A DNA stretch of 64,000 bases from Treponema sp. (GTDB lineage: Bacteria > Spirochaetota > Spirochaetia > Treponematales > Breznakiellaceae). Positions 128-57,064 of the stretch are shown here, piece after piece. The stretch is taken from contig WQYB01000005.1 in assembly GCA_009781475.1 (NCBI GenBank), positions 1 to 64,000 of the forward strand, in the 5' to 3' direction. Numbering within the stretch: position 1 is the first letter of the stretch; the number at the start of each line of letters is the position of its first letter. The translations under genes were made by a program, and so were the position numbers. The notes below the pieces were generated by a model, which saw only the letters and a list, made by a program, of their open reading frames with translations, did not search any database and was not told the DNA's origin.

Positions 128-1054
128 TTATCTGTCGATGATTTTTTTAAGGGTGTGGTCTTTTTGCCGCCAGTCTTTGCCGGTTTTAACTCGTAAATCC
201 AAATCTATTTTCCAGTCAAAAACCTGTTTAAAATTTTTCAGCGACGCAAGGCGAATTGCTTTTATCATCTCGCCGCCTTTGCCGACTACCATGCCTTTTT
301 GCGATTCACGTTCAACTATTATAAATGCTCTTACCCAAAGCTGCCCATTTTTATCGTCTTCTTTAAATTCCATGTCGGCAATTTCTACATACAATGAATG
401 AGGCAGTTCCTGGCGCAGCCGGTTTATCGCCTGTTCACGGATAATTTCTGCAATACGAAACTCTGTTTCCTGATCTGTGTAATATTCACTGTCATAAAGC
501 GGCTGTCCTTCGGGCATCATATCGTACAAGACAGACAAAAGTTCTTCGACACCTTGTCCTGTGAATGCAGAAATTGTAAAAATGCGTTCTTTATTAAAAT
601 CACACGCAGGCACGGAGGGAGAAAGAGAAGGTAAATACTTTGTTATAAATTCTTTGGAGCGGTTAATATCTGCGTCAGGTACATCTATTTTATTTATAGC
701 AATAACAACTTTTTTAGTTAAAGGTGTTAAGAATTTAACTATTTCTTCTTCTTCCTGTCCGGGAGCGCGAAATGCATCGATAATATATAAAATTAAATCG
801 CTTTCTGAAATTGCATTATTGGAAACATCCATCAATTTTTTGTTCATTTTTTTTTCGCTGGAATGTCTGCCGGGAGTATCTATAAAAATTAACTGACCTT
901 CTTCGCGGTTAACAATTCCGCGGATTGCATTACGTGTAGTTTGCGGAACCTTGCTTACAATTGCAACTTTTTCGCCGCACATTTTATTCAGAAGCGTTGA
1001 TTTTCCTACAGAAGGACGCCCAATGATCGTAACAAACCCGCATTTTTTAATCAT
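128..1054 (-). CDS. era: GTPase Era
   Basis: Era is a Ras-like GTPase with a C-terminal KH domain that binds the 3' end of 16S rRNA during 30S assembly. The 308-residue protein shows the P-loop GRPSVGKST at 12-20, DTPG at 59-62, NKID at 121-124, ISA at 161-163 and the KH signature GKGGEMIK near 260. The start follows AAGG, and only 7 bp separate it from the stop of the giant gene, so the two are probably co-transcribed or era has a promoter inside that gene. Residues 140-152 (YLPSLSPSVPACD), between NKID and ISA, are encoded by one arm of the dispersed cacggag repeat. That loop is several residues longer than in E. coli Era, so the repeat seems to have inserted in frame. Function call is secure; the insertion is an inference. 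Confidence 0.97.
   Translation of the reverse strand: MIKKCGFVTIIGRPSVGKSTLLNKMCGEKVAIVSKVPQTTRNAIRGIVNREEGQLIFIDTPGRHSSEKKMNKKLMDVSNNAISESDLILYIIDAFRAPGQEEEEIVKFLTPLTKKVVIAINKIDVPDADINRSKEFITKYLPSLSPSVPACDFNKERIFTISAFTGQGVEELLSVLYDMMPEGQPLYDSEYYTDQETEFRIAEIIREQAINRLRQELPHSLYVEIADMEFKEDDKNGQLWVRAFIIVERESQKGMVVGKGGEMIKAIRLASLKNFKQVFDWKIDLDLRVKTGKDWRQKDHTLKKIIDR
599..637. repeat. cacggag-type half-element inside era
   Basis: The plus strand reads tcacacgcaggcacggaggg followed by agaaagagaag, a single arm of the dispersed repeat. Read on the minus strand it encodes Era residues 140-152 without breaking the frame. Only one arm is visible. Confidence 0.6.
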
Positions 1055-4000: not shown

Positions 4001-7000
4001 CAGCAGAAATATTTGCATTTACTGTTACTTCTAAAGTTGCCCAAAATGAATTTTCTAAAGTAAATGAAGTTGGATTATTTAAATTAAGATTAGTAGCTGT
4101 TATCCTTGATCCAAGTGTTTCTCTATCTGCACGTACAGGTGTACCGCCAAGTAAAAGATTTCCATTATAACCTGTAAAACCTGCCTGTCCTGTTCCGTTT
4201 CCTATTTGCCATGAACCATCAATTAGAATAAGCCTTGCACCGTCTATTGAACCTGAACCAGCTTCCATTTTAAGAGTTCTAGTATTTCTTTGAGTAACAG
4301 TATTATTGTTTATAACTGTGACAGTACTTCCCATTTTGATGAGCACATTACATAATTCACGATTACTTGAAGGTGGAGTAAAGAAACTTAAATCGTGTGC
4401 CGCTGTTGTCCCTGATACAGAATAGAAAATTATTTCACTATCATTATGATGCGTAAAATTACCAAGTACAACATCAGCGCCAAAATATATTTCTACAGGG
4501 TTAGCGCCTGTTAATTCACCGCTTGCGCCTGTTATATAATCACCTTCAAAATAGGCATTCTTAATAAGTGTAAATGCGCCGGTATTATTCATGTTAGTTT
4601 CACCACTAACTGTAATTACTTCTTCTACTGTAAGCACATTCCCTGTAAATGAATAATTACCTGAATAATTTTGTATTCCAACAAATGTAGTAGAACCTGT
4701 ACCTGTTTGGGTGAAACTGACGGCATATATTTCATCATTAAAAGCAACCGTACCGTTACTTGTTACTGTTATATTACCAATTCTATCAATTAAATCAGTT
4801 CCTACTTTACCACCAACAGTTATCAAAGGACTTTCGAATGATAAGTCTCCAATATTTTCTGTATCGCCGGAAATATTAATACTGCCGGTTCCGTTTAATT
4901 CCAAGTTATATGCAGCCTGACCAACAATATTACCAATATTAATAATTGTACCTGTTAATTCTCTAGTTGTTCCTGTAGTACCACCAAGTGTTATATCTCC
5001 ATTATAGTCTTGTGTGGTTGCCGTTGTAATATTAGCGTTTACATTACTGATACCGTTTACAACCATACTGCCAATATCTACATCACCATTAAATCTAGCA
5101 TTTGTACTATTAATTGTTAATAAATAATCACCTTCAATTTCATCATTAAAATAAACCCAACTTGCCGGAACTGCTGTTGTTACGTTAAGAATTACACTTG
5201 CACCTAATGTAACATTGCCGGTGTAGGTTTGATTTCCGCTTGTGGTGATATTACCATTAATTTCACTGGTTCCGGTAACTTCTAGAGTTGTCATTCCAGT
5301 GTTTGTAGAACCGTTGAAAACAGCATTACCTGTTACTAATAATGACAGATTATTACCTGTTATTGCACCCATTGTTACAGTTACACCTTCTAGTGTTCGT
5401 GTCGTTCCAGCACCGCCTAGTAAAACATTTCCGGTATATGTTTGTGTGCCTGTAGTTGTAATATCTGCGTTAATTTGACTTTCACCGCTTACACTAACAC
5501 TACCTACATTTACCGTATTACCTCCAGCTGCCAAGCCAAACATTGCATTAGCGTTTATAACTGTTAATGAATAATTGTTATTAATATTGCCATGAAATGA
5601 AATTAAGTTTCCTGCTGTTGTAGCATCTAATATAATATCTTCACCCAGTGTTACATTGCCGTTATAAGTTTGAGCACCGCTTGTGGTAATATTACCGTTA
5701 ATTCCACTGGTTCCGTTAACTGTAAGTGTTCTTATTCCATCACTGACACCATTAAATACAGCATTACTATCTATTAATAATATTCTATCATTACCTGTTA
5801 TATTATTACTTAAATTTGCACCTAATGTAACAGTTGAGTTTGTTGTAGTTAAAATTCTTGTATCACCTGCTAAACCGCCGCCAAATTCTACATCTCCGCC
5901 GTAGTTTTGTGTAGTTGTTGTAGTTATATCTGCGTTAATATCAGAACTTCCGCCGCCTGTTACATTAACAGAAGCTATTGGATTACCTGTTCCGACTACA
6001 GTTCCTACATTTCCATTAAATACTGCATTTGCATTTGTTATTGTTAACGCACGCGCAGTTACATCAATACTTTCTACTGTATCAGTTGAACCTGCTCTAT
6101 TCAATGTTATTGTACTTCCCGTATTAGCCGTAAGATTTACTGTACCTCCAATTCGTACATGTCCGTTATATGTTTGATTACCAGCTGTACCAATATTACC
6201 AGTAATTATAGTTGTTGTAGTATTTGGAACTGCATCAGCAACAGTTAAACTGCCATTACTATCTACATTTCCATTAAACCTTACAATCGCATTACTAGTT
6301 GTTGAAAAATTTATATTTCCTATAAGAGAAATTAAACCACTTCCTGTATTAGCACCATAAATTTGATCACCTGTAGTATTAATATTATTGTTGATTGTAG
6401 TAGTTCCCGTAGCTCCATTATTAATATTTATACTTGTTAATCTTGTATTTCCACCTACTATATTATCAAATATTACATTTCCGCTATTAACAACTAACGC
6501 ATTTGCGCCGTTTACGGTATTTTGGAAATGTATATTACTACCTGCTGCTGCAGATAGATTTACAGTTGCGCCAAGTGTTACAGCGCCATTATAAACTTGA
6601 GCATCTGTTGTTGATTGTATTGTTCCAACAGTTTCTATACTACCTCTTATAGTACTATTTCCATCAACAATTAGGTTTCTTAAATTATCAGCTATAGTAA
6701 GATCGATTGCATCAGCGGTTACTGCACTTGAAGTTAATGTTAACGAATTATTAACGCCAATAATTGTGCCAATTGTAATACTATTTGCTTCTATCGTACT
6801 GCCAAGAACTGCATCAGATCCATTAAGAGTTATCTGATTTACATTAAATGTACTTGTTGCTCCATCAAGTTCAATGTTTGCATTATTTAAAAACACTCCT
6901 TCACTACCAGGTAATAAAGTTAATTCTGATGCTTCATAATCACCAATGACATGTATTTGTCCGGTAATTGCAGTTCCTCGAATTTCAAAAGTCATCGATC

Positions 7001-10000
7001 TAGGAACATCTCCAACTTCATGAATAAAAATACTATTATTAGTATTAACAAAAATTGTTGTTTCATTACTTATATTTGAATCAATAAAATATGGATTAAT
7101 TAATGCAGAATAAATATCTTCAATTTGTGTCGTTGTATATATAGTACCGTCATAATAAACTACATCTCTGTTACCATTAAATACATTATGCAAGTGATAT
7201 CTATCCCCTGCTACAAAACCGTGAAAATAATGATCTGTATATACTGTATCTAAATCAAGACAAAGATGTGTAGCACCACTTGGATTTATATTAGCAGAAG
7301 ATATGGAAAAATCTTTTGCACCAATATAAATAGTTGAAGAAATATCACATGCCACGTTAAGACTAGAACCGCCTAAATTGGTTCTGCCAGTACCGGTTGA
7401 AGTTAATGTGCCGGTTGTATTTATAATTACATCTCCGTTTTTTGCACCTGCTTCTAATATTATTATTGTACCTGTTACTGCACCATTTATATTTATATTT
7501 TGGTTATCTGCGGATCTAAGTGTAATTTCTCCATTACTATTTGTAACATCTCCAACAATAAGACTTCCGCTGTTAACATAAATTATATTTCCAGAACCAT
7601 TGTTTTCAAATGTGATATTTGCTGTATTATTGTCAGTTCTATCTAATGTAATACCGCCGGTTGCAGTTACAGATAAAATTCCGGTTGTAACGATTGCTCC
7701 GTTTTGGTTTACAATACCTGTATTTTCAATTGTAATATCATTACTGCCAACATTATTAATTCCGGCAATTGTAAGCGCACCTGTATTTGTAAAATCAACA
7801 GTACCGCCTGCACCTGTGATGTTTAAGGTTCTTATTGAATTGCCTGTTTCGTTTAGAGTTATAATATCACTTGAATTTAGAATAAGCGTTCCGTTTATTT
7901 CGATCGAACCGGACTGAGTTATCGCACCTGAAGCAATTATTGTTACATTATTTGCGCCAACATCGCTAATTTCTATTATTTCAATTTCATCACTGTTTGT
8001 AAATTGTACAGTAGCGCCGGCTCCTGTTATTGATAATGTTTCAATATTATTACCTGGATTAGTTAATGTTACTGTATTATTAACACCTGTTGAGTTTATT
8101 AAAAGATTTGCAGCATTAATCGAACCCGTTTGAGAAATTGCTCCTACCTGATTTGCATTATCACCAAGTATTAATTCATCACGAACAACTATATTACCAT
8201 TTAATCTAATAGCGCCACGATTAGCTGGAACAACATGAAGTAAAGATAATTTGTCAATTGCTGCATTACTTACATTACCGCTAATAATAATACTTTCTTC
8301 TAAATTATGATTTCTTGCAACAAGTGCCAGATTATTATAAACAGATCCCGTAATACCGCCAATTGTTATATAACCAGCTGTTATATTATTATCAACTCCA
8401 AGCAATTCCAATAAATTTGCATTAAAATGATTATTACCAAAATCTACTATAGTATCATTCAAACGTACTCTTTCTGTAGTAAGTGTAGTTGTGTTTGTTG
8501 TACTAGTAAATGAATTAATTCCTCTAAATTCAATAAAATCAACGCTATTAGTAATAAATGTTAAATTTTTATCAGTAGACGGATCTACATCAATAATATA
8601 AATATTATATCCTGCAGATGCTGAGAAAATTTCTCTTGGATCAGTTGGATTAATAATAACATAAGGAGTTATAGAAGGATCAGGATTTGTTACATGTGTT
8701 GTATAAATTATATGGCGGTCAACTAATAATTTAATAAACACACGTTCGTTATTACCGCCGTCATTTGCAACAATTGAAGTAAGATTAAGATTAAGTTCGT
8801 TAGTTGAATAACAATCCTTTATTGTGGGCATATTTAATAAGTTAATATTTCCAGGTTGTATATTAATTGTCCAGTAATTCTCCGGGTCTTCTGTTATTAC
8901 ACCTCTTATTACAGACCCGTCTAAAGTTAAAGTATTAATGGTTTGTGTAAAACTATTTTGGAAAAGTACAGTGCCGTTACAGATTACATTATGAAAAGTA
9001 TTACTACCATTTACAGTTGCAGAATTAAATATAACTGCTCCATCACCATGATTAAATGTACCTGTTCTTGTCCATGTGCCGCCCTCTACAGTTATCATAC
9101 TGGCTGCCTCAGCGGTTAAAGTTCCTGCAATATTAAAATTTACAGCAGAAAGATCATATATACCAATATCAAAAGAAGCTCCGCTGGCAATATAAAATGT
9201 ACCTGAATAAGTTTGATTGTCTCTGGCTGTACCGGTTCCTGTATTCTGAGAATAATTAACCGCAAATACTTCAGCATCGTCAAAAAATATATTTCCGTTT
9301 ACAGTAATATTACCAATAGGTGAGCCAGCTGCTCCAACCGATGTATTAATAAAGATATTTATTGGTGAAGGATCACTTGCATTTAATTCAATATTTCCCG
9401 TTCCTGTAATTACAGGCAGAGCTATTTGAGTAGCATTAATTGTGTTATTTGTCGTTCCAACAAGAGTTACTGGAATTGTAGACGAATGCCAAAATTGATT
9501 ACTACCGCGGTTTAATGTACCATTATTAAAACGAATACTAACATCTGTATTAATTGTTAATCCGTCACCTGTAAAATTATTAGTTCCGCGGAATTCGACA
9601 TAACCTTGTCCGGTTGTTGTAAATGTTAAATTAGCTGCAGAAGACCAAGCATTAATTGGAACATCAATAATATAAATATGACGATTTACAGGTGCAGCTT
9701 GGTTAGTAAATGCTTCATTTGCATTTACCCATCTGTAATTTGGAGTATTAAGATCAGGATGAAAACTTGCGCTTGGCTCAGTAAAACTTAAAACAATATG
9801 TCTGTCGTTTGGATTATGCAAATGGTAATTACCTGTAACAACACTATCAAAAGCATCATGAACATATTCTATTACTAAATCAAGACAAAGATCTCCAAAA
9901 CCTATATTATTAACTGAACCTCCAGCGGTTACAGTAAAATCATTTGCTTCAATATATATTGCTGAATCTTCATCACAAATTATACCTCCCAGATCTTCTT

Positions 10001-13000: not shown

Positions 13001-15026
13001 CAGAAGTAGAAAGCGTAGTGTAAACAATATGTATATCTTCTAAATCATTTATAATACCTCCGCTATCACAAGGAAAATGATAACGATTTCCATCAATTCT
13101 GCCATTTCCATTACCAGTAAAATTGATTACATTTAAACAGATTTCACCATTAGCTCTTGTAGGTCCTGGTCCTGGATAAATTATTCCTGAACCACTTACC
13201 GCATTAAAAGTGTTTGCATTAACAAATATAGCTGAATTTATTCCATTACCATCACCTGGAGTTAAAAAGTGATTTCCTGTACTGGACACATTTATAGTTA
13301 CTGGAGCTGCAACTGTTACTGTATTGTTCGGAGCAGTTAATACTAATCTATTTGTATTTGTAATATTCCCATTAATATTAATATTTCCAGCTGATGAATT
13401 TAATGTTAATACATTTGAAGTTCCAATATTTACTCCACCTAATCCAATTGTTATGCCATTGTTTGCATTTACAGTAAGCCCAACATTACCGTTAACAGTA
13501 TTTGTTGTTACTATGCTTCCGTTAGTTGAGGTTAAGATACGAGTACCTGTCGTACCTAAATTAATAGCACCATTATAATTTTGATTACGTGTAGTGGTAA
13601 TATTATTATAAATATTAAACAATAATCCTGTTAAAGAAAGATCACGAACACCTGTAATACTACCAACTGTAATAATCCCAGCGACAGAATTAAGTGTTAG
13701 ATCATTAGCTCCCAAACTTGTAACATCACCTAATAATATACTCATAGCATTTATGCTGCTAGTTCCATCAAGTATTATAGGATATGCAGCATCAAAAGAG
13801 TTACCAATCAAGTTTATATTTGCATCAACTAACCTAATACCACCATCACCAGGTGAGAGATTAAGAAAACCAGTAGTCGTATAACCACCTCGTATTTCTA
13901 TAAAACCTGTTCCATTAATAATAAAATCAATACTTCTTGTATTTGCAGGATTAGAATCTCCAACATCAACAATATAAATATTGTAATTAAGATCAACACT
14001 ATATGATAATAATGTATCTAAATCTATTCTGCTAGAATCTATATAAGTATGATTCAATGGGATATCACTTGGCACAAAAGTGCCATAAACTAAATGACCA
14101 ATAATTGGTTCTACAACAATTGGTGTTGGCGTTCCATGAAAATGGTAACGATTTCCATTAATTTTATTTGGACTAATCAAATATTCAGCAACATTAAAAC
14201 AAACTTGTCCAGATGCTGCTGGAATAATTACTCCAGTACCGCCATATGCTCTAAATTGATTTGTATTTATATAAATAGATACATTACCAGTATGAATATT
14301 AGGAGGAGTATTACATTCACCTAGAGGACTATTTGCAACACCAATTGTATTTATATTTGCAGACCCATTTACTGTTACATTCCCACTTGAAGCATTTATA
14401 ATTAATCTATTAGAGTAAACATCTCCAGTAAATGTGATGTCTCTAGCAGAAGTGAGTGTTATATTACGATTTCCTGCAATAATTCTCCCAACTCTTAAAT
14501 CTTGACCCGGATTACTTTTTGTAATAGTTAAATTCGTACTCCAAAATTGAATTGGTGCGCCGTCCATGGTAAAATTATTACCACTATCAATTTGCGTTAC
14601 GCTGTCATTGATGATTAAATTAACCGAAGATAATTCAGCATTTGGAGTATTATTAGAATAAAAATCATTATTCAATTCTGTTGTGGTAGAAGCTAACAAG
14701 CCATCTGAAACTAACACAGGCGTATTTAAGAATAATCTATTAACAGTTATCGAATTATTATTAAGAAAAAGTTGAAAATGAACATTTATATAAAGAGAAT
14801 CTAAGGTAATTGGTTCATATACATTTAATGGCCATGATGCCACATTTATTAATGCAGTATCGCCAGCTCCATTTGGAAACCTACTTGCATTTTCTTCACC
14901 TGTTGTTATGTTCCTCCAATTGCTTGCAACAGTCCAACTCGAACCGCCTTTCCACTCAAATTCATCTCCCCACGCCACACTAACGAGAATAACAAAAAAA
15001 AGTAGGAAAACAGCAAACTTCTTCAT
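1062..15026 (-). CDS. giant exported beta-solenoid-like repeat protein (4654 aa)
   Basis: The product starts with a clear Sec signal peptide (MKKFAVFLLFFVILVSVAWG) and a W..G...W...NW segment like those at the start of many large surface proteins. Most of the chain is rich in Asn, Thr, Gly and Ile. Six diverged modules carry the series 'CLDL - YHLHN - RHIVY - YNIYIIDV - FIEFRG', with FIEFRG-like motifs near residues 373, 723, 1251, 1807, 2162 and 2678; several modules hold a Cys pair (C..STIYI / LCLDL). From about 2700 to 3400 shorter repeats follow (QTYNGNVTLG type, roughly 60 residues apart). The final ~950 residues are not repetitive, and the last ~75 (YHMARAGRVTINI...GMYFMRIV) resemble a FlgD-Ig/T9SS-type C-terminal domain. 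No autotransporter barrel is visible. SD: AGG 7 nt before ATG. Likely a surface or secreted adhesin-like filament; function unknown. Confidence 0.9.
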   Translation of the reverse strand: MKKFAVFLLFFVILVSVAWGDEFEWKGGSSWTVASNWRNITTGEENASRFPNGAGDTALINVASWPLNVYEPITLDSLYINVHFQLFLNNNSITVNRLFLNTPVLVSDGLLASTTTELNNDFYSNNTPNAELSSVNLIINDSVTQIDSGNNFTMDGAPIQFWSTNLTITKSNPGQDLRVGRIIAGNRNITLTSARDITFTGDVYSNRLIINASSGNVTVNGSANINTIGVANSPLGECNTPPNIHTGNVSIYINTNQFRAYGGTGVIIPAASGQVCFNVAEYLISPNKINGNRYHFHGTPTPIVVEPIIGHLVYGTFVPSDIPLNHTYIDSSRIDLDTLLSYSVDLNYNIYIVDVGDSNPANTRSIDFIINGTGFIEIRGGYTTTGFLNLSPGDGGIRLVDANINLIGNSFDAAYPIILDGTSSINAMSILLGDVTSLGANDLTLNSVAGIITVGSITGVRDLSLTGLLFNIYNNITTTRNQNYNGAINLGTTGTRILTSTNGSIVTTNTVNGNVGLTVNANNGITIGLGGVNIGTSNVLTLNSSAGNININGNITNTNRLVLTAPNNTVTVAAPVTINVSSTGNHFLTPGDGNGINSAIFVNANTFNAVSGSGIIYPGPGPTRANGEICLNVINFTGNGNGRIDGNRYHFPCDSGGIINDLEDIHIVYTTLSTSAIPGDIPADHIVISPSDPRKSFTASANYNIYIIDVASTDDLIFTTSGDGFIEFRGTNILSGAVTLATALTEYVEFNGTNTISGIVLNITTGNINLNGTLNRGSNAFNTSTPSIPLTLIGTSNTITTAANINLGTVTGVGNFILNGTAITLDGIVNINGAMTVNNSGLFTQNAAITANGGINFTGTVTLNGVTLSTVDNDISFGGIVTLGGTGTSILNSGTGNGNISFTSTANPAITGTGNLTLTAGTGNVGFSGQVGTNAATRVGNVIVNSTNNVTFGQSVFAESVEVNNNSASTINANINTSGNQTYTGAVTLGGAGTRTFTSSAGNVTFAGVVTGSDITVNAATGISMDAAPGNVINSINLNNNGTTGDINYNGNRGSANTLSVNINNTANAIDTGNIIINETGNVAVAAGNSITVNSGNTGVAGLGGSYLSEPCTTPSTIYINANNFSSADNNSINPGAGELCLDLTVQRYAADFTSLVSGNFHLHNEIVDRHIVFYSASQKTIAQLLDDHSDFASNPDIYRFVNVDLSVPTADNFNPALPISNYQTPDNMNLYFVDVGHTALALPILASNTAFVEFRGYNSFQVWFAAFETNGGGIRFYDTDFRVPTQGTNSLLNKVTFVGNNIDGSVTNVRITALAVQLGIDHFPLPSPPAIQLGSGSINVEGNNIDLTITATGGHWDIPAMDAINSSVTIFKTIPAGIRNLTINSTGRNPNLASTDHSYNINILGNLDVETVTINTLTNTEIANTLTNTGNIRQPNTGTGAIKAETVTINATGAITLDNPGNNIDTINITRPVGTGNGAIQFTNNKALEIEEINIQSGADRNVTINAVGAITQTGAIETTGTFTANVLATATSGGITLDNAANNVATVNLTNNTSGDIEFNNNTAALTATATNNATTGGNISITNTGNLTVGAGAQAIRTAVSGADINLTSTNGVITVTGGIGTALEQNSKVNLTAGTNIAIAGTINCYQLVIKAGNKTGNVNLTGLINVSSPGEEDLGGIICDEDSAIYIEANDFTVTAGGSVNNIGFGDLCLDLVIEYVHDAFDSVVTGNYHLHNPNDRHIVLSFTEPSASFHPDLNTPNYRWVNANEAFTNQAAPVNRHIYIIDVPINAWSSAANLTFTTTGQGYVEFRGTNNFTGDGLTINTDVSIRFNNGTLNRGSNQFWHSSTIPVTLVGTTNNTINATQIALPVITGTGNIELNASDPSPINIFINTSVGAAGSPIGNITVNGNIFFDDAEVFAVNYSQNTGTGTARDNQTYSGTFYIASGASFDIGIYDLSAVNFNIAGTLTAEAASMITVEGGTWTRTGTFNHGDGAVIFNSATVNGSNTFHNVICNGTVLFQNSFTQTINTLTLDGSVIRGVITEDPENYWTINIQPGNINLLNMPTIKDCYSTNELNLNLTSIVANDGGNNERVFIKLLVDRHIIYTTHVTNPDPSITPYVIINPTDPREIFSASAGYNIYIIDVDPSTDKNLTFITNSVDFIEFRGINSFTSTTNTTTLTTERVRLNDTIVDFGNNHFNANLLELLGVDNNITAGYITIGGITGSVYNNLALVARNHNLEESIIISGNVSNAAIDKLSLLHVVPANRGAIRLNGNIVVRDELILGDNANQVGAISQTGSINAANLLINSTGVNNTVTLTNPGNNIETLSITGAGATVQFTNSDEIEIIEISDVGANNVTIIASGAITQSGSIEINGTLILNSSDIITLNETGNSIRTLNITGAGGTVDFTNTGALTIAGINNVGSNDITIENTGIVNQNGAIVTTGILSVTATGGITLDRTDNNTANITFENNGSGNIIYVNSGSLIVGDVTNSNGEITLRSADNQNININGAVTGTIIILEAGAKNGDVIINTTGTLTSTGTGRTNLGGSSLNVACDISSTIYIGAKDFSISSANINPSGATHLCLDLDTVYTDHYFHGFVAGDRYHLHNVFNGNRDVVYYDGTIYTTTQIEDIYSALINPYFIDSNISNETTIFVNTNNSIFIHEVGDVPRSMTFEIRGTAITGQIHVIGDYEASELTLLPGSEGVFLNNANIELDGATSTFNVNQITLNGSDAVLGSTIEANSITIGTIIGVNNSLTLTSSAVTADAIDLTIADNLRNLIVDGNSTIRGSIETVGTIQSTTDAQVYNGAVTLGATVNLSAAAGSNIHFQNTVNGANALVVNSGNVIFDNIVGGNTRLTSININNGATGTTTINNNINTTGDQIYGANTGSGLISLIGNINFSTTSNAIVRFNGNVDSNGSLTVADAVPNTTTTIITGNIGTAGNQTYNGHVRIGGTVNLTANTGSTITLNRAGSTDTVESIDVTARALTITNANAVFNGNVGTVVGTGNPIASVNVTGGGSSDINADITTTTTQNYGGDVEFGGGLAGDTRILTTTNSTVTLGANLSNNITGNDRILLIDSNAVFNGVSDGIRTLTVNGTSGINGNITTSGAQTYNGNVTLGEDIILDATTAGNLISFHGNINNNYSLTVINANAMFGLAAGGNTVNVGSVSVSGESQINADITTTGTQTYTGNVLLGGAGTTRTLEGVTVTMGAITGNNLSLLVTGNAVFNGSTNTGMTTLEVTGTSEINGNITTSGNQTYTGNVTLGASVILNVTTAVPASWVYFNDEIEGDYLLTINSTNARFNGDVDIGSMVVNGISNVNANITTATTQDYNGDITLGGTTGTTRELTGTIINIGNIVGQAAYNLELNGTGSINISGDTENIGDLSFESPLITVGGKVGTDLIDRIGNITVTSNGTVAFNDEIYAVSFTQTGTGSTTFVGIQNYSGNYSFTGNVLTVEEVITVSGETNMNNTGAFTLIKNAYFEGDYITGASGELTGANPVEIYFGADVVLGNFTHHNDSEIIFYSVSGTTAAHDLSFFTPPSSNRELCNVLIKMGSTVTVINNNTVTQRNTRTLKMEAGSGSIDGARLILIDGSWQIGNGTGQAGFTGYNGNLLLGGTPVRADRETLGSRITATNLNLNNPTSFTLENSFWATLEVTVNANISAAPNLTLAGNTPQLVLYMNGIGAQTLTVNQPIGSFHVGENSQTTLASVGTVSFRGEVFILSTNASNSWLNAANNNIIMYAGLEGTRNLIEYNNNGSTTIKYTRWESPNVEINPNTLGFPDPTMVPYVFRQDPGGKVSFAKEIGETYTDIFFEIVGYTIWREFECLENGATIQFSRNPHHHVVMDRFIIEGAPGAANYITLTRLTEQQSTDTAPYPNTVPYEYRSTMGAPGGVGSITSLMLPANPRPGDLKTTGAVEMSKYWNINLIFDGVDPIGRFDYVNLYFSHSFNQRIIIPLDKDTIEFDPYYATGQSSYFNYDWVWFRVPRTILYSFTEDYSGDGRLDRIRVQANFKLNGDFTDFDVSVEGYEVLRTRPSPESRFDYFHNGFQMVHRFTGTGDFDEDSFYIYLVPKPEIDGGNTPRWNVIRNTTLADRQHPSILVGDPAVDRNIVPFDTIPPRISYTLTLPGHPQVYVRTSEPVVTGGFQYGSSPVTETRVETTNAYTYTWRFFPIDGSNHPPYTQTVISATLGYILNLPPAATLNVSTLSGLINMSNTSQIDGYFLIENMVDQGLRALDWKDLDNQYYTAPKYPLNWGYTKYAIVRGNSHLGISSDESNAETAGVPVLLSQVFLPPNRLLTPAMVAQLEDGDGEYITPQSFTEDYVIRRVTDVLVSVPPTSIDQDNYFAWPIWARYVSPLNTDPFADNDEWDWDWRDYITDTGILRDFDGSRFLEYEYLSQQRGIIQMQSRLNSSLSGSNFEIFWTTNVSAAFRNPAQPAERGRGTGGLWIPNILSLNGYRPRFYYAPIYNATPSAINQSPLTNVGTSLYNYDFPGAITSGNKIEFIYRLTPSSDLFVARLHIARGAAIPPNWYQLVRPFSFDIQDVRRQRGGVTMMNNVINSGNREVAYIRYHMARAGRVTINIHTMEGALVKSIRRNEMREAGEYTDGWDGTNNAGRPVARGMYFMRIVAPDIDEIRQIMVIR

Positions 15027-15307
15027 CAGTACCTGGTATACCCTCTAAATATTAATAACATAAAATTTAATCAGAAAAATATGCAATTATTATTGATACT
15101 ACATTGGCATGTGCGAAAAACACCGGCGGCGACATACGGTGTGGATCGGGATGCAGCCACGCCAAAGCGTGCGTTAACTGAAGCCACGACCGTCCGGAGC
15201 CGCAGGGGGTTTACGCTCATGCCACAGAATGAATTATAATAATTTTCATATATATTTATCGGCAGATCCCTCTCCCTTCTATATTGTAGCATACTATGGG
15301 AGAATTT
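14994..15307. repeat. duplicated leader of the giant gene, copy A
   Basis: This segment holds the first codons of the giant gene and about 280 bp upstream. It matches 16031-16350 in the same orientation, with point changes and small indels in the AT-rich parts and very few changes in a GC-rich core. The pair flanks the CdiA-CT-like ORF as direct repeats. Confidence 0.93.
15105..15224. repeat. GC-rich 120-nt structured element, copy A
   Basis: A GC-rich block in AT-rich surroundings, bounded by inverted ends (TGGCATGTGCG and CGCTCATGCCA). Inside is the small stem CACGC-CAAA-GCGTG. The copy at 16148-16267 has the same length and differs at only a couple of positions across the central ~88 nt. 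On the minus strand it lies in the leader of the giant gene. An 85-codon ORF runs through it (15071-15328), but I cannot tell whether it is translated. It could be a mobile repeat or a structured RNA. Confidence 0.75.
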
Positions 15308-15990: not shown

Positions 15991-16062
15991 TCATATTTGA
16001 AATATAATAAAAAAATTAACACCTGAACATAAAAAAAGCAGAAAAACAGCAAACTTCTTCAT
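15991..16062 (-). pseudogene. relic 5' end of a second giant-protein gene
   Basis: ATG at 16060-16062 opens MKKFAVFLLFL, identical over ten residues to the signal peptide of the giant protein, and then runs into CSGVNFF and a TGA at 15991-15993. The same frame continues through about 14 codons into the start of the CdiA-CT-like ORF. It belongs to leader copy B. The simplest reading is a second giant gene that lost its body. Confidence 0.7.
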
Positions 16063-16350
16063 CAATACCCGATATACCCTCTAAATATCAATAATGTAAA
16101 ATGCAATTAAATCAGTAAAATATGCGAATTATTATTAATTACCACATTGGCATGAGCGGAAAACACCGGCGGCGACATACGGCGTGGATCGGGATGCAGC
16201 CACGCCAAAGCGTGCGTTAACTGAAGCCACGACCGTCCGGAGCCGCTGGGGGTTTATGTTCATGCCACGAAATCATTTATAATAATTTTCATATATAATC
16301 ATCGGCATTTTCCTCTCCCTTCTATATTGTAGCATATTATGGGAGAATTT
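16031..16350. repeat. duplicated leader of the giant gene, copy B
   Basis: Second copy of 14994-15307, same orientation. It ends 1 bp short of the hicA stop codon, which marks a sharp duplication or insertion border at 16350/16351. The AT-rich flanks have diverged more than the GC-rich core. Between this copy and the toxin-like ORF start (15949-16030) I see only the relic signal peptide and AT-rich DNA. Confidence 0.93.
16148..16267. repeat. GC-rich 120-nt structured element, copy B
   Basis: Same length as 15105-15224, with inverted ends TGGCATGAGCG / ...CATGCCA and the same internal CACGC-CAAA-GCGTG stem. The core is nearly unchanged while the surrounding sequence has drifted, which suggests selection or gene conversion on the core. 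Confidence 0.75.
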
Positions 16351-40300: not shown

Positions 40301-40384
40301 TCTCACGGAGACACGGGGACACGGAGAACACAAAGGAAAGATAGTGAATTACGACTCCGTGACTCTGTGCCTCCGTGTGAGATT
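40301..40384. repeat. cacggag-type inverted repeat, intergenic copy 2
   Basis: Left arm tctcacggagacacggggac, right arm ...ctctgtgcctccgtgtgaga, separated by an AT-rich loop. It lies between murD and epmA; the GGGG that follows its right arm probably serves as the epmA ribosome-binding site. Confidence 0.85.
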
Positions 40385-40394
40385 GGGGTTATAA

Positions 40395-41387
40395 ATGAAT
40401 TTAGAGATGCTGCAAAGACGTGCTGCAATTATTAAACAGATACGCTCTTTCTTTGAACAGAAAGGCTACCTTGAACTGGATACTCCCCTGCTTTCGCCGG
40501 ATTTAATCCCTGAATCCTGTTTAGAAGTTTTTCAAACCGAACGTCTTTTCCCAAAAGGCAGTAAAAAAGAAAAACAATCCCTTTGGTTAATTCCTTCGCC
40601 GGAAATCTGGATGAAAAAGATTATTGCCAAACATAGTGTAAATGTTTTCCAGATTTGTAAATGTTTCCGTAATGGTGAATCGGAAGGCAGATTTCACAAC
40701 AGCGAGTTTACAATGCTTGAATACTATACGATGGATGCAGATTATATGGATTCGCTTGTTTTAACAGAAGAATTGTTTAGAAATTTAACCACGAAGAACA
40801 CGGAGTTACACGGAGAAAGAGGTAAAAGTAGTTTATTACCATTTGAGAGGATTACGGTTGCACAGGCTTTTAAAAAATATGCAGGGTTTGATTTATTTGA
40901 AACTGCCGCTAAAGGAGCTGATGCCATGTGTTTACAAGCTGTAAAACTCGGTCTTGACCCGATGCCCGGTTTAACAGTAGCGCAGCTTTACGATTTAATT
41001 TTTATTCATTCTGTAGAACCGCATCTAAAAAGTGATAAACCTGTTGCTCTTATTGACTACCCTGCTTTTGTTCCATGCCTTGCAAAAAAAGCGGCTAACG
41101 GACATACAGTTGAACGCTGGGAATTGTATTACAATGGTTTAGAACTATCAAACTGTTTTTCCGAAGAAACAAACGCACAAAAAGTAAAAGAGTTTTTTAT
41201 AAATGAACAAGAAGAGAAAAAACAAAATGCCATTGTCCAACACAAGGTGAACAATAATTATTACAAATTGTTTGAAAAACAATTTCCGCGCTGCAGCGGC
41301 GTTGCAATGGGATTGGACAGGCTCATTATGGCTCTTACCGGAAAATCCAGTATTGACAGTGTAATGATGTCATTTGATGAAAATTAG
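40395..41387 (+). CDS. epmA: EF-P lysine ligase EpmA (GenX/PoxA type)
   Basis: EpmA is a lysyl-tRNA-synthetase-like enzyme that attaches (R)-beta-lysine to elongation factor P. The 330-residue protein lacks the anticodon-binding domain. It has class II motif 2 FRNGESEGRFHNSEFTMLEY (91-110), ELYYNGLELSNCFSE and motif 3 GVAMGLDRLIMAL. Residues 131-143 (LTTKNTELHGERG) come from a dispersed repeat inserted in frame in a surface loop between motif 2 and LPFERITVAQAF. EpmB and efp are not in this window. Confidence 0.9.
   Translation: MNLEMLQRRAAIIKQIRSFFEQKGYLELDTPLLSPDLIPESCLEVFQTERLFPKGSKKEKQSLWLIPSPEIWMKKIIAKHSVNVFQICKCFRNGESEGRFHNSEFTMLEYYTMDADYMDSLVLTEELFRNLTTKNTELHGERGKSSLLPFERITVAQAFKKYAGFDLFETAAKGADAMCLQAVKLGLDPMPGLTVAQLYDLIFIHSVEPHLKSDKPVALIDYPAFVPCLAKKAANGHTVERWELYYNGLELSNCFSEETNAQKVKEFFINEQEEKKQNAIVQHKVNNNYYKLFEKQFPRCSGVAMGLDRLIMALTGKSSIDSVMMSFDEN
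40788..40822. repeat. cacggag-type half-element inside epmA
   Basis: Plus strand: aaccacgaagaacacggagt then tacacggagaaagagg, one arm of the dispersed repeat, kept in frame. It encodes epmA residues 131-143 in a loop that other EpmA proteins lack or keep shorter. Confidence 0.8.
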
Positions 41388-42968: not shown

Positions 42969-44414
42969 TCAGGTATCGTCAGGAATTTCAATTCCAAGGG
43001 ATTCCGCAATACGTCTTTCTTTTCTTGCAAGACTATCGTTTCTGTCTTTTACAAGCGTTAAAATTTCCAGCCTTAATTCCAAAAGATTATTGTTAGATGC
43101 CATATCAAGAGCGTATGATTTTTCTATAATTGTGCCGCTTGTCATAAAACGCCGTGCAAGATTTTCAATATCTTTTTTCTCACCTTCAACTACTGCTTCA
43201 CCTGCCACTCTTAAAAAACCGTTATACAAAGCTGTCTGGTTTTTAGTTCTTGCATCATCAAGTTCAATAATAAGTTTTGTAAATACTGCTGGAGACTTAG
43301 TTTTCATAAGCATATCCGCAGCAAGTATGCGGACACGATCGGGATTTCTGCGTTCAGAAAATAAAACATCCAAAACCGTAATCGCTTCTTCGTTGGCGAT
43401 CGCTCCAAGGGCTCTTATCGCTTCATCTTTTACATTGGGAACTTCATCGCGTTCGGCGCGGAATCTTAAAAACGGAACAGCCGCAGCAAGTTTTCTCTGA
43501 GCGCTTGCCTGTGCCGCTGCAATTCGTGTGCGGTAATACGAATCACGAAAACCTTCCAAAATTGCATTATCTACAGCTTCACCCGAAAACGGACCAAGAG
43601 CGGAAACTGCTGCCGACCTTACATTCGGATCGTTAGTTGAAACACAGCCAAGTATGGCATCAAGACCTTCTTCATCGCCGATCTTGGAAAGTGCGCCTAA
43701 CGCTGCGATACGAAGCGGCATACGCTCGTCTGTATTAGAAGCTATATCAACTAAAAGCGCAACACCAACAGATGAAGCTGTTTCGCCGATAGCTGTTATT
43801 ATTATACTTCGGTTATCGCTGCCAGGTTCTCTGTTTTCATAAAAGTCTATAAGAAACTCTGCTGTTTCATCCGCCAATTTTGTGTCCGAAGAAGCAGCTC
43901 TCCCGATTGCCCGAAAACCTGCGCTCATAAAACGTCTTTCTTCTGAATCTAAAAGTTCCATTATTGAAGGGACAGCATCGGCGGATTTAATACGGCCAAG
44001 ATATTCAACAGCGGATAAAATTGTTTCGTTTGTTTCATCTTCACGTTCGTCTATTATTCTAATCGCGCGGCTTTCAAGCCCTGTTTTTTCGCGTTCTCCG
44101 AAAAAAGCAAAAATGCCGGTTAATATTCTCTGGTTTTTTGATGTTTCTATTAAAGCTATAAGTTCATTATCAAGATAATCTGCGTTTTCTGTTCTAAGTG
44201 TTTGAATAAGAGATGCTATTTCTGTTTCAGTACCGTACTGGATGGTATCACGCCGTGTCGCTTCCACATCCTGCTGCGCAAACAATGGAAAAGAAATAAC
44301 GAAGAATATGAACCACAGAGGACACGGAGTTGCACGGAGTTCTTTGTACGAAATCTTTTTCTTCCTCCGTGTTTCTCCGTGTACTCCGTGGTTATTAATT
44401 CTTTTCTTAATCAT
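42969..44414 (-). CDS. exported HEAT-repeat protein
   Basis: The 481-residue protein is a solenoid of HEAT-type helical pairs (e.g. SVGVALLVDIASNTDERMPLRIAALGALSKIGDEEGLDAI). Start ATG 44414 follows GAGG; the GTG at 44426 lies 12 bp earlier. Residues 7-35 (NNHGVHGETRRKKKIS...) come from a complete dispersed repeat that was inserted in the n-region of the signal peptide; the hydrophobic core (IFFVISFPLFA) follows directly, before QQ. Export may therefore still work. It overlaps tgt by 8 bp. Probably a periplasmic scaffold. Confidence 0.85.
   Translation of the reverse strand: MIKKRINNHGVHGETRRKKKISYKELRATPCPLWFIFFVISFPLFAQQDVEATRRDTIQYGTETEIASLIQTLRTENADYLDNELIALIETSKNQRILTGIFAFFGEREKTGLESRAIRIIDEREDETNETILSAVEYLGRIKSADAVPSIMELLDSEERRFMSAGFRAIGRAASSDTKLADETAEFLIDFYENREPGSDNRSIIITAIGETASSVGVALLVDIASNTDERMPLRIAALGALSKIGDEEGLDAILGCVSTNDPNVRSAAVSALGPFSGEAVDNAILEGFRDSYYRTRIAAAQASAQRKLAAAVPFLRFRAERDEVPNVKDEAIRALGAIANEEAITVLDVLFSERRNPDRVRILAADMLMKTKSPAVFTKLIIELDDARTKNQTALYNGFLRVAGEAVVEGEKKDIENLARRFMTSGTIIEKSYALDMASNNNLLELRLEILTLVKDRNDSLARKERRIAESLGIEIPDDT
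44310..44394. repeat. cacggag-type inverted repeat, inside the HEAT gene
   Basis: Both arms are present: aaccacagaggacacggagt on the left and tccgtgtactccgtggtta on the right. The element is 85 nt and lies in frame at codons 7-35 of the HEAT protein. Confidence 0.85.
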
Positions 44415-55826: not shown

Positions 55827-56369
55827 TTATTTTTCAATAATAACTATATCGCCTTCCAGTACCCCGGCTCTTGAAAACCAGCCCTGCGGTACTTCCAGTG
55901 CATAACGTACTGAACGGCTAGACACAATATTATTTGTATCATGCGGGTACATATCTTTCATTTCGATTATTCTGCCGTCAGAAGCGATAAAAGCGATTGT
56001 TAGCGGGATATAAGTATTTTTCATCCAGAAAGATAATACCTGATCTCTTTCATATACAAAAAGCATTCCCTCGCCGTCAGGAAGATTCTGCCTGTGCATA
56101 AGACCTTTCATCTGTTCTTCACTGGTAGTTGCAATTTCTGCTTTTATTGTTGTTATTACCTTTCCGTCTCTTTCTATCGAAAGTTCCTGAACGGCTAACT
56201 TCTGCGAATTACACGCAATAAATAAGATTAATATTAATAATATTTCACACAGAGGCACAGAGAGCACGGAGGACACAGAGGGTTTTGGTTTAATATTAAA
56301 TAACGCATAGCTCTCCGTGTCTCCGTGTCTCCGTGTGATTAATTTTGAAATTAATTTGTTAGAATTCAT
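55827..56369 (-). CDS. DUF192 lipoprotein with repeat-derived leader
   Basis: The C-terminal ~125 residues are a DUF192 domain (TTSEEQMKGLMHRQNLPDGEGMLFVYE, FWMKNTYIPLTIAFI, RYALEVPQGWF). DUF192 proteins are exported and of unclear function. Residues 11-41 come entirely from a complete dispersed repeat (56243-56341). Just after it lies a hydrophobic stretch (EILLILILFIAC) with lipobox Cys at 53, so the element sits in the n-region of the signal peptide. It overlaps the upstream gene by 11 bp. The original start may have been lost in the insertion. Confidence 0.8.
   Translation of the reverse strand: MNSNKLISKLITRRHGDTESYALFNIKPKPSVSSVLSVPLCEILLILILFIACNSQKLAVQELSIERDGKVITTIKAEIATTSEEQMKGLMHRQNLPDGEGMLFVYERDQVLSFWMKNTYIPLTIAFIASDGRIIEMKDMYPHDTNNIVSSRSVRYALEVPQGWFSRAGVLEGDIVIIEK
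56243..56341. repeat. cacggag-type inverted repeat, inside the DUF192 gene
   Basis: Left arm tttcacacagaggcacagag with agcacggagg, right arm ctctccgtgtctccgtgtctccgtgtgatt, AT-rich loop. The two arms are complete, and the frame stays open through all 99 bp. Confidence 0.85.
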
Positions 56370-56957: not shown

Positions 56958-57064
56958 AACCACGGAGTACACGGAGAAACACGGAGGAAGAATGAGCTTT
57001 CGTACTAAAAACTCCGTGAAACTCCGTGTGCTGGAAGCTTCGCTGCAAGTACCTCTGTGGTTAA
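56958..57064. repeat. cacggag-type inverted repeat with nested insertion
   Basis: Left arm aaccacggagtacacggaga, right arm beginning tccgtgaaactccgtgtg and ending tacctctgtggtt. The right arm is split by a second palindromic piece (gctggaagcttcgctgcaag). It lies between the cNMP regulator and the 184-aa gene. Confidence 0.85.

Follow-up and report, generated by a model that had tools for sequence, protein, structure and literature searches.

In the AT-rich mitochondrial DNA of yeast, the GC clusters are short mobile palindromes, and some of them lie within coding sequence. Repeats of a comparable kind are described from bacteria. In the REPIN/RAYT system, single repeats (singlets) are regarded as doublets that have decayed (Bertels and Rainey 2011, PMC3116915). 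The Rickettsia palindromic elements (RPE; Ogata 2000, reviewed in PMC2229807) are hairpins of about 100-150 bp that are found in frame in conserved genes as well as between genes. In Yersinia, YPAL/RU-2 is a small mobile repeat that contributes to a predicted signal peptide (Delihas, PMC2229807). Here we describe palindromic repeats that interrupt, in frame, the signal peptides of exported proteins, and of which one family has the same arms as those on either side of a GxxExxY nuclease gene in the same genome.

The genome (G000 in the comparisons below) is assembled to 3.29 Mb in 216 contigs and is 93% complete, and the window, by which we mean the whole 64-kb stretch of DNA that was analysed, lies on its contig C5. 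The repeat from which the analysis started is found in the gene of a DUF192 (COG1430) lipoprotein of 180 codons (55827-56369, minus strand, ATG at 56369; PF02643 match with E 5e-32). Its arms reach from 56245 to 56338 on the minus strand, which makes the element 94 bp long, or 99 bp with 2-3 flanking bases. The outer arms, read on the minus strand, are TCACACGGAGACACGGAGACACGGAG and CTCTGTGTGA; they are inverted, are built from 8-nt CACGGAGn units and enclose a middle of 42 nt. A strong hairpin is predicted (-41.9 kcal/mol, z -7.7), and 0 of 200 shuffled sequences were equally stable. A search of the 64-kb window against Rfam matched no known RNA family. The element occupies codons 11-42 in frame, between the n-region of the signal peptide (codons 1-10, MNSNKLISKL, 56340-56369, minus strand) and its h-region with the lipobox (ILLILILFIAC, 56211-56243, minus strand; the lipobox Cys is residue 53). 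The protein is read through as MNSNKLISKL-itrrhgdtesyalfnikpkpsvssvlsvplce-ILLILILFIAC, where lower case marks the residues encoded by the repeat, and the lipoprotein is presumably exported normally with the insert in place.

A second signal peptide in the window, that of a HEAT-repeat exported protein (42969-44414, minus strand), is interrupted in the same manner: MIKKRIN is followed by an in-frame palindromic repeat (44312-44392, minus strand) and then by IFFVISFPLFAQQ. We call the DUF192-type repeat family A (ends TCACACGGAGnCACGGAG) and the HEAT-type repeat family B (ends ACCACGGAGnACACGGAG). The initial annotation had placed a 99-bp repeat in codons 10-42 of the DUF192 gene, followed by the lipoprotein core and its Cys, and had taken the two genes as two cases of one repeat in a signal peptide. 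The position holds with the codons corrected to 11-42, and the core and Cys53 do follow the repeat; the shared location of the two cases also stands, but they are not the same element, since the HEAT repeat belongs to family B.

Other copies in the window lie in and between genes. Full family-A repeats are intergenic at 34-111, which is 16 nt from the 3' end of era, and at 40301-40380, and a full family-B repeat with a disturbed right arm is intergenic at 56959-57039. A family-B half repeat (40788-40815, plus strand) is in frame in a class-II tRNA-synthetase-like gene (40395-41387), at a site that is empty in the genomes G006 and G009, and era itself, a conserved GTPase gene, contains an in-frame A-like arm remnant coding LPSLSPSVPACD (599-631, minus strand). 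As a separate observation, beside a surface-protein-like ORF of 4654 aa the window also has a direct duplication (14995-15307 and 16031-16350, about 1.04 kb apart), with identities of 87% over 77 nt and 92% over 211 nt.

Both families are far more frequent than chance would give. A 26-base family-A pattern has 121 matches in the 3.29 Mb genome and its reversed control has 0, and a 17-base B-type pattern matches 13 times in the window where 0.29 matches are expected. In 996 kb of stretches, mostly picked around copies, to which all copy statistics refer, 161 copies were called: 44 full and 43 half repeats of family A, and 47 full and 27 half repeats of family B, the B count taking in some loose halves (at most 6 mismatches; control matches at that threshold 0). 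The full inverted doublets that fold as hairpins number 91. At least some of the half repeats look like decayed full copies, because an A half in this genome (L093 4011) is a full element in the sister genome G010. Exact family-A arms are recorded in Treponema MAGs from termite gut, which are relatives of this genome, and a literature search with the bare repeat string returned only primer matches. A third family, with CGCAGAG/CGCAAAG units, occurs in large numbers in G004, G009 and G010 and was seen at the flanks of L107 and L127; GxxExxY genes with arms of this type are present in G010 and G009.

The arms of family A are also found around a gene. A search of this genome for GxxExxY found a single gene (L101, 6572-6955), a full member of TIGR04256 / PF13366 PDDEXK_3 (E 3e-37) with the D...ExK motif, which is flanked by A arms in opposite orientation, plus at 6537-6562 and minus at 6984-7009. 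In many phyla, inverted arms (local IR score of at least 13) bracket 56 of 67 GxxExxY loci, as against 7 of 357 shifted control positions (p 1e-50), in a sample made up mostly of genomes that were chosen for A arms or that belong to the same genus. In Spirochaetota genomes chosen regardless of repeats, the only sample free of repeat-based choice, 14 of 24 loci are bracketed and 0 of 91 controls are, and several of the unbracketed loci have recognisable, shorter arms. The bracketing arms belong to a single superfamily built of short tandem units (CACGGAG, CACAAAG, CGCAGAG, CGCAAAG, CACGAAC, CGCAGATT and others). Within the genus, PF13366 is found in 6/6 genomes with at least 4 A arms and in 10/34 others (p 0.002). 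The arms are thus associated with GxxExxY genes, and the reading that we favour, with a probability of roughly 60%, is that the 94-99 bp element is a non-autonomous REPIN/MITE-like repeat whose copying into A-run/T-run sites is promoted by the GxxExxY nuclease. In the open literature on GxxExxY, TIGR04256 and PF13366, no description of such arms was found, and their novelty is provisional. Plasmid carriage of GxxExxY was considered as well and is nearly absent, with the one query used matching 5 of 72,556 plasmid records.

It is possible, though doubtful, that GxxExxY is instead a passenger or parasite of arms that are spread by recombination or by another enzyme. Bracketing alone is no proof of mobilisation, as genes of PF05635, which has no known nuclease fold, are also bracketed (20/30), and family B thrives in this genome, although no B-type GxxExxY gene was found in the assembly, which is 93% complete. 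Recombination would also fit the exchange of families at single sites. At six in-gene positions (L090 4030, L066 4052, L081 4027, L077 3986, L065 4029 and L095 4009), the family present in G000 differs from the one in G010, and the G010 copy at L095 is chimeric, with one arm of each kind; because of these differences, such shared sites have either been hit repeatedly or been converted between families. Against a mere passenger, the arm sequence tracks the distance between GxxExxY proteins (Mantel rho 0.28), even among pairs below 65% identity (0.25), values that 0 of 1000 permutations reach in either case. The catalytic residues E43, D83, E93-x-K95 and Q107 show little or no variation, and the predicted protein model (pLDDT 93.8) matches PD-(D/E)XK nucleases. 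In a Sedimenticola MAG, some short A elements have loops with GxxExxY remnants of about 30 residues (E 2e-7 to 9e-5), which at the sequence level would mark them as internally deleted derivatives; the A loops of this genome contain no recognisable GxxExxY remnant beyond the arms. The RAYT/Y1 transposase domain, as one other enzyme, is absent from this genome. As for PF05635 itself (four-helix-bundle, 23S IVP; loci L347-L376), the bracketing of 20/30 loci compares with 7/357 control positions, and the inverted arms are of another kind, with heptamer-like short tandem units (TAGGGAC, GGAATAG, TGAGGGA). We take these to be reminiscent of the STRR repeats of cyanobacteria.

Where the copies sit relative to genes was determined with 875 genes called with a purpose-built codon model, so that starts are approximate. 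About 70 of the 161 copies lie within open reading frames. Of the 88 gene 3' ends that flank intergenic copies, 73 are no more than 30 nt away. In tandem spacers, 35 copies are nearer to the 3' end of the upstream gene and 4 are nearer to the downstream start, and convergent spacers hold 24 copies where 8.4 are expected. In-gene A copies are spread evenly along genes (KS p 0.10, 53 copies). The preference for gene starts that the initial annotation had considered is therefore refuted by mapping 161 copies in 996 kb, because intergenic copies crowd at 3' ends and in-gene A copies show an even spread. A flank target was considered as the cause of the 3'-end bias and is unsupported: the B-flank model described below gives 3' ends no higher scores than the regions upstream of 5' ends. 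More probably, the bias would come from selection against insertions that disrupt promoters.

A special relation with signal peptides is nevertheless real. At the n/h junction, between a Lys/Arg n-region and the hydrophobic core, lie 13 of about 66 in-ORF copies, an excess of about 40-fold (binomial p about 2e-17 against a target of 0.5% of coding DNA, itself a rough estimate from about 186 signal-peptide genes with a 24-nt target each). These 13 copies were listed by eye from translations, and several depend on GTG or TTG starts. Ten belong to family B (window 44312, L062 11308, L065 15273, L068 8339, L083 3959, L084 3974, L087 7580, L095 8788, L098 3990 and L123 3991) and three to family A (window 56245, L065 8125 and L097 12819), which gives junction shares of 10/25 and 3/43 (Fisher p 0.003). 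A stricter automatic scan for signal peptides found 3 junction copies where random placement predicts 0.74; it undercounted because its h-region often started within residues encoded by the repeat. Signal peptides are thus a hotspot, mostly for family B.

The flanks of family B offer a possible reason. Their consensus is an A-run on one side of the repeat and a T-run on the other (AAAAAAAAATTA / TAATTTTTTTTT), and in a model trained on intergenic B copies only, in-gene B copies score at the 99th percentile. In uninserted genes, 30% of signal-peptide junctions lie above the flank threshold, against 2.8% of other coding windows (p 3e-43); for other gene starts the share is 6%, for intergenic windows 10%. 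At the codon level, this consensus is mimicked by Lys codons with Phe/Leu codons after them. If the flanks are the target, the hotspot is explained, and target choice would be its cause; if they are part of the element, the match to signal-peptide DNA still holds, with a weaker meaning.

The simplest competitor is pure tolerance, in which insertion is random and n-regions are merely the least harmful place for it. Signal-peptide n-regions vary in length, and the even spread of in-gene A copies along genes suggests that many positions are tolerated. However, tolerance alone does not predict that families A and B differ in their share of signal peptides, the copies cluster at the n/h junction, which is where the flank score peaks, and few of them are found at the starts of non-exported genes, which are also often tolerant. 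We regard random insertion as somewhat unlikely to be the whole explanation. The tolerance of n-regions that the initial annotation had offered is probably needed as well, but in view of the flank scores at junctions and in other coding windows it is not sufficient on its own.

The DUF192 insertion is shared with the sister genome G010, where it has the same frame. Between the two genomes the element is 99.0% identical, with 0 synonymous changes in 32 codons, and identity in the remainder of the gene is 78.9% (p 1.5e-7 for the contrast). A recent common origin would be enough to account for this, and so would conversion or constraint. Constraint would fit an insert that is kept for a function, for example as a hairpin at the 5' end of the coding sequence that tunes translation or export, and the loop of the element, which is unique within the sequence compared, would fit this too. 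We nonetheless consider such a function improbable, as other species have no insert at this spot or have unrelated ones: DUF192 orthologs carry other repeats at or near the junction in G024, G019, G009, G033, G035, G030, G008 and G015, and are without a repeat in G021, G023 and G006. In addition, at two other sites that the genomes share, the copies show no clear excess of conservation over their flanks (76/82 vs 129/150 and 40/48 vs 118/131 identical positions). It is very improbable that DUF192 translation truly begins downstream of the repeat and that the repeat is an untranslated leader: there are in-frame GTG codons inside the repeat and a naive coding model chooses one of them, but a start inside the repeat would give a leader without positive charge, several insertion-free orthologs start with MNS at the same ATG (e.g. 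MNSRRLAVVLFIILSFTSC and MNSKNYLFVFVILFFLSC), and G010 preserves the whole frame.

The HEAT gene presents a similar picture across species, with a CACGAAC-type repeat in G009, G027 and G038, a CGCAGAG-type repeat in G007, a CGCAAAG half in G035 and no insert in the remaining orthologs. Some sites have a copy in one species and none in another, and no clean target-site duplication was seen in any of the empty-site comparisons, in which the empty sites had diverged or the flanks had often been rewritten over 20-40 nt.

Copying promoted by the GxxExxY nuclease, the reading preferred here, could work as follows. The arms of the short element correspond to the ends of a longer one in which the same arms enclose the GxxExxY gene, and the nuclease would recognise and cut these arms as a hairpin or as a duplex. 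Repair or strand transfer after cutting would copy the arms, with short copies riding along, and insertion would take place at a dyad of an A-run followed by a T-run. In an AT-rich genome the n/h junction supplies such a dyad through AAA/AAG Lys codons followed by TTT/TTA/CTT. Insertions at these dyads would survive at gene ends and, if in frame, at tolerant positions of proteins; in-frame survival is possible since the arms lack stop codons in several frames and a longer n-region is tolerated.

We would lay even odds on a broader reading, that GxxExxY nucleases define an undescribed, phylum-spanning class of palindromic mobile elements, which have a gene-bearing form of about 0.5 kb and many short hairpins, have clade-specific arms, insert between A-runs and T-runs, and repeatedly rewrite signal peptides. 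If true, GxxExxY, a bacteria-wide family of unknown function, would gain a testable role, and the repeats of the ACACGGAG / CGCAAAG / CACGAAC type in many phyla would gain a likely owner. Besides REPIN/RAYT, a second hairpin system linked to a nuclease would then be known, with an unrelated enzyme fold. The presence of hairpins in signal peptides would have a sequence-based reason, namely that the DNA of a Lys-rich n-region and a T-rich h-region resembles the target, and species-specific insertions would alter the leader length and charge of exported proteins, as a source of protein novelty.

Compared with the systems described at the outset, the repeats share with REPIN/RAYT the inverted doublets of short repeats forming hairpins, the high copy number, the association with one nuclease family and the non-autonomous copies. 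Unlike in REPIN/RAYT, the associated enzyme is a PD-(D/E)XK protein encoded inside the palindrome, and unlike the extragenic REPINs many copies are in open reading frames. A RAYT (Y1 transposase domain PF01797) was rejected as the mobiliser, as a search of this genome found none and the control search was positive in 5/14 known genomes. The repeats thus resemble REPIN/RAYT in their working but are not a member of it, because there is no RAYT and many copies lie in genes. As in bacterial MITEs, there are terminal inverted repeats, and the ends are shared with a longer gene-bearing element. The GC clusters of yeast mitochondrial DNA (PMC4478555) belong to another genome and have another sequence than the Treponema repeats, and are likened to them by description only. 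The RPE, also compared by description only, are similar in that conserved protein genes here have in-frame insertions (the tRNA-synthetase-like gene and others); the differences are the Treponema-type host phylum, the arm sequence, the gene-bearing long form and the signal-peptide hotspot. In the case of YPAL/RU-2, hydrophobic residues come from the repeat and the description centres on one locus (PMC2229807), whereas the repeats described here separate the n-region from the h-region in about 13 genes whose signal peptides are otherwise intact.
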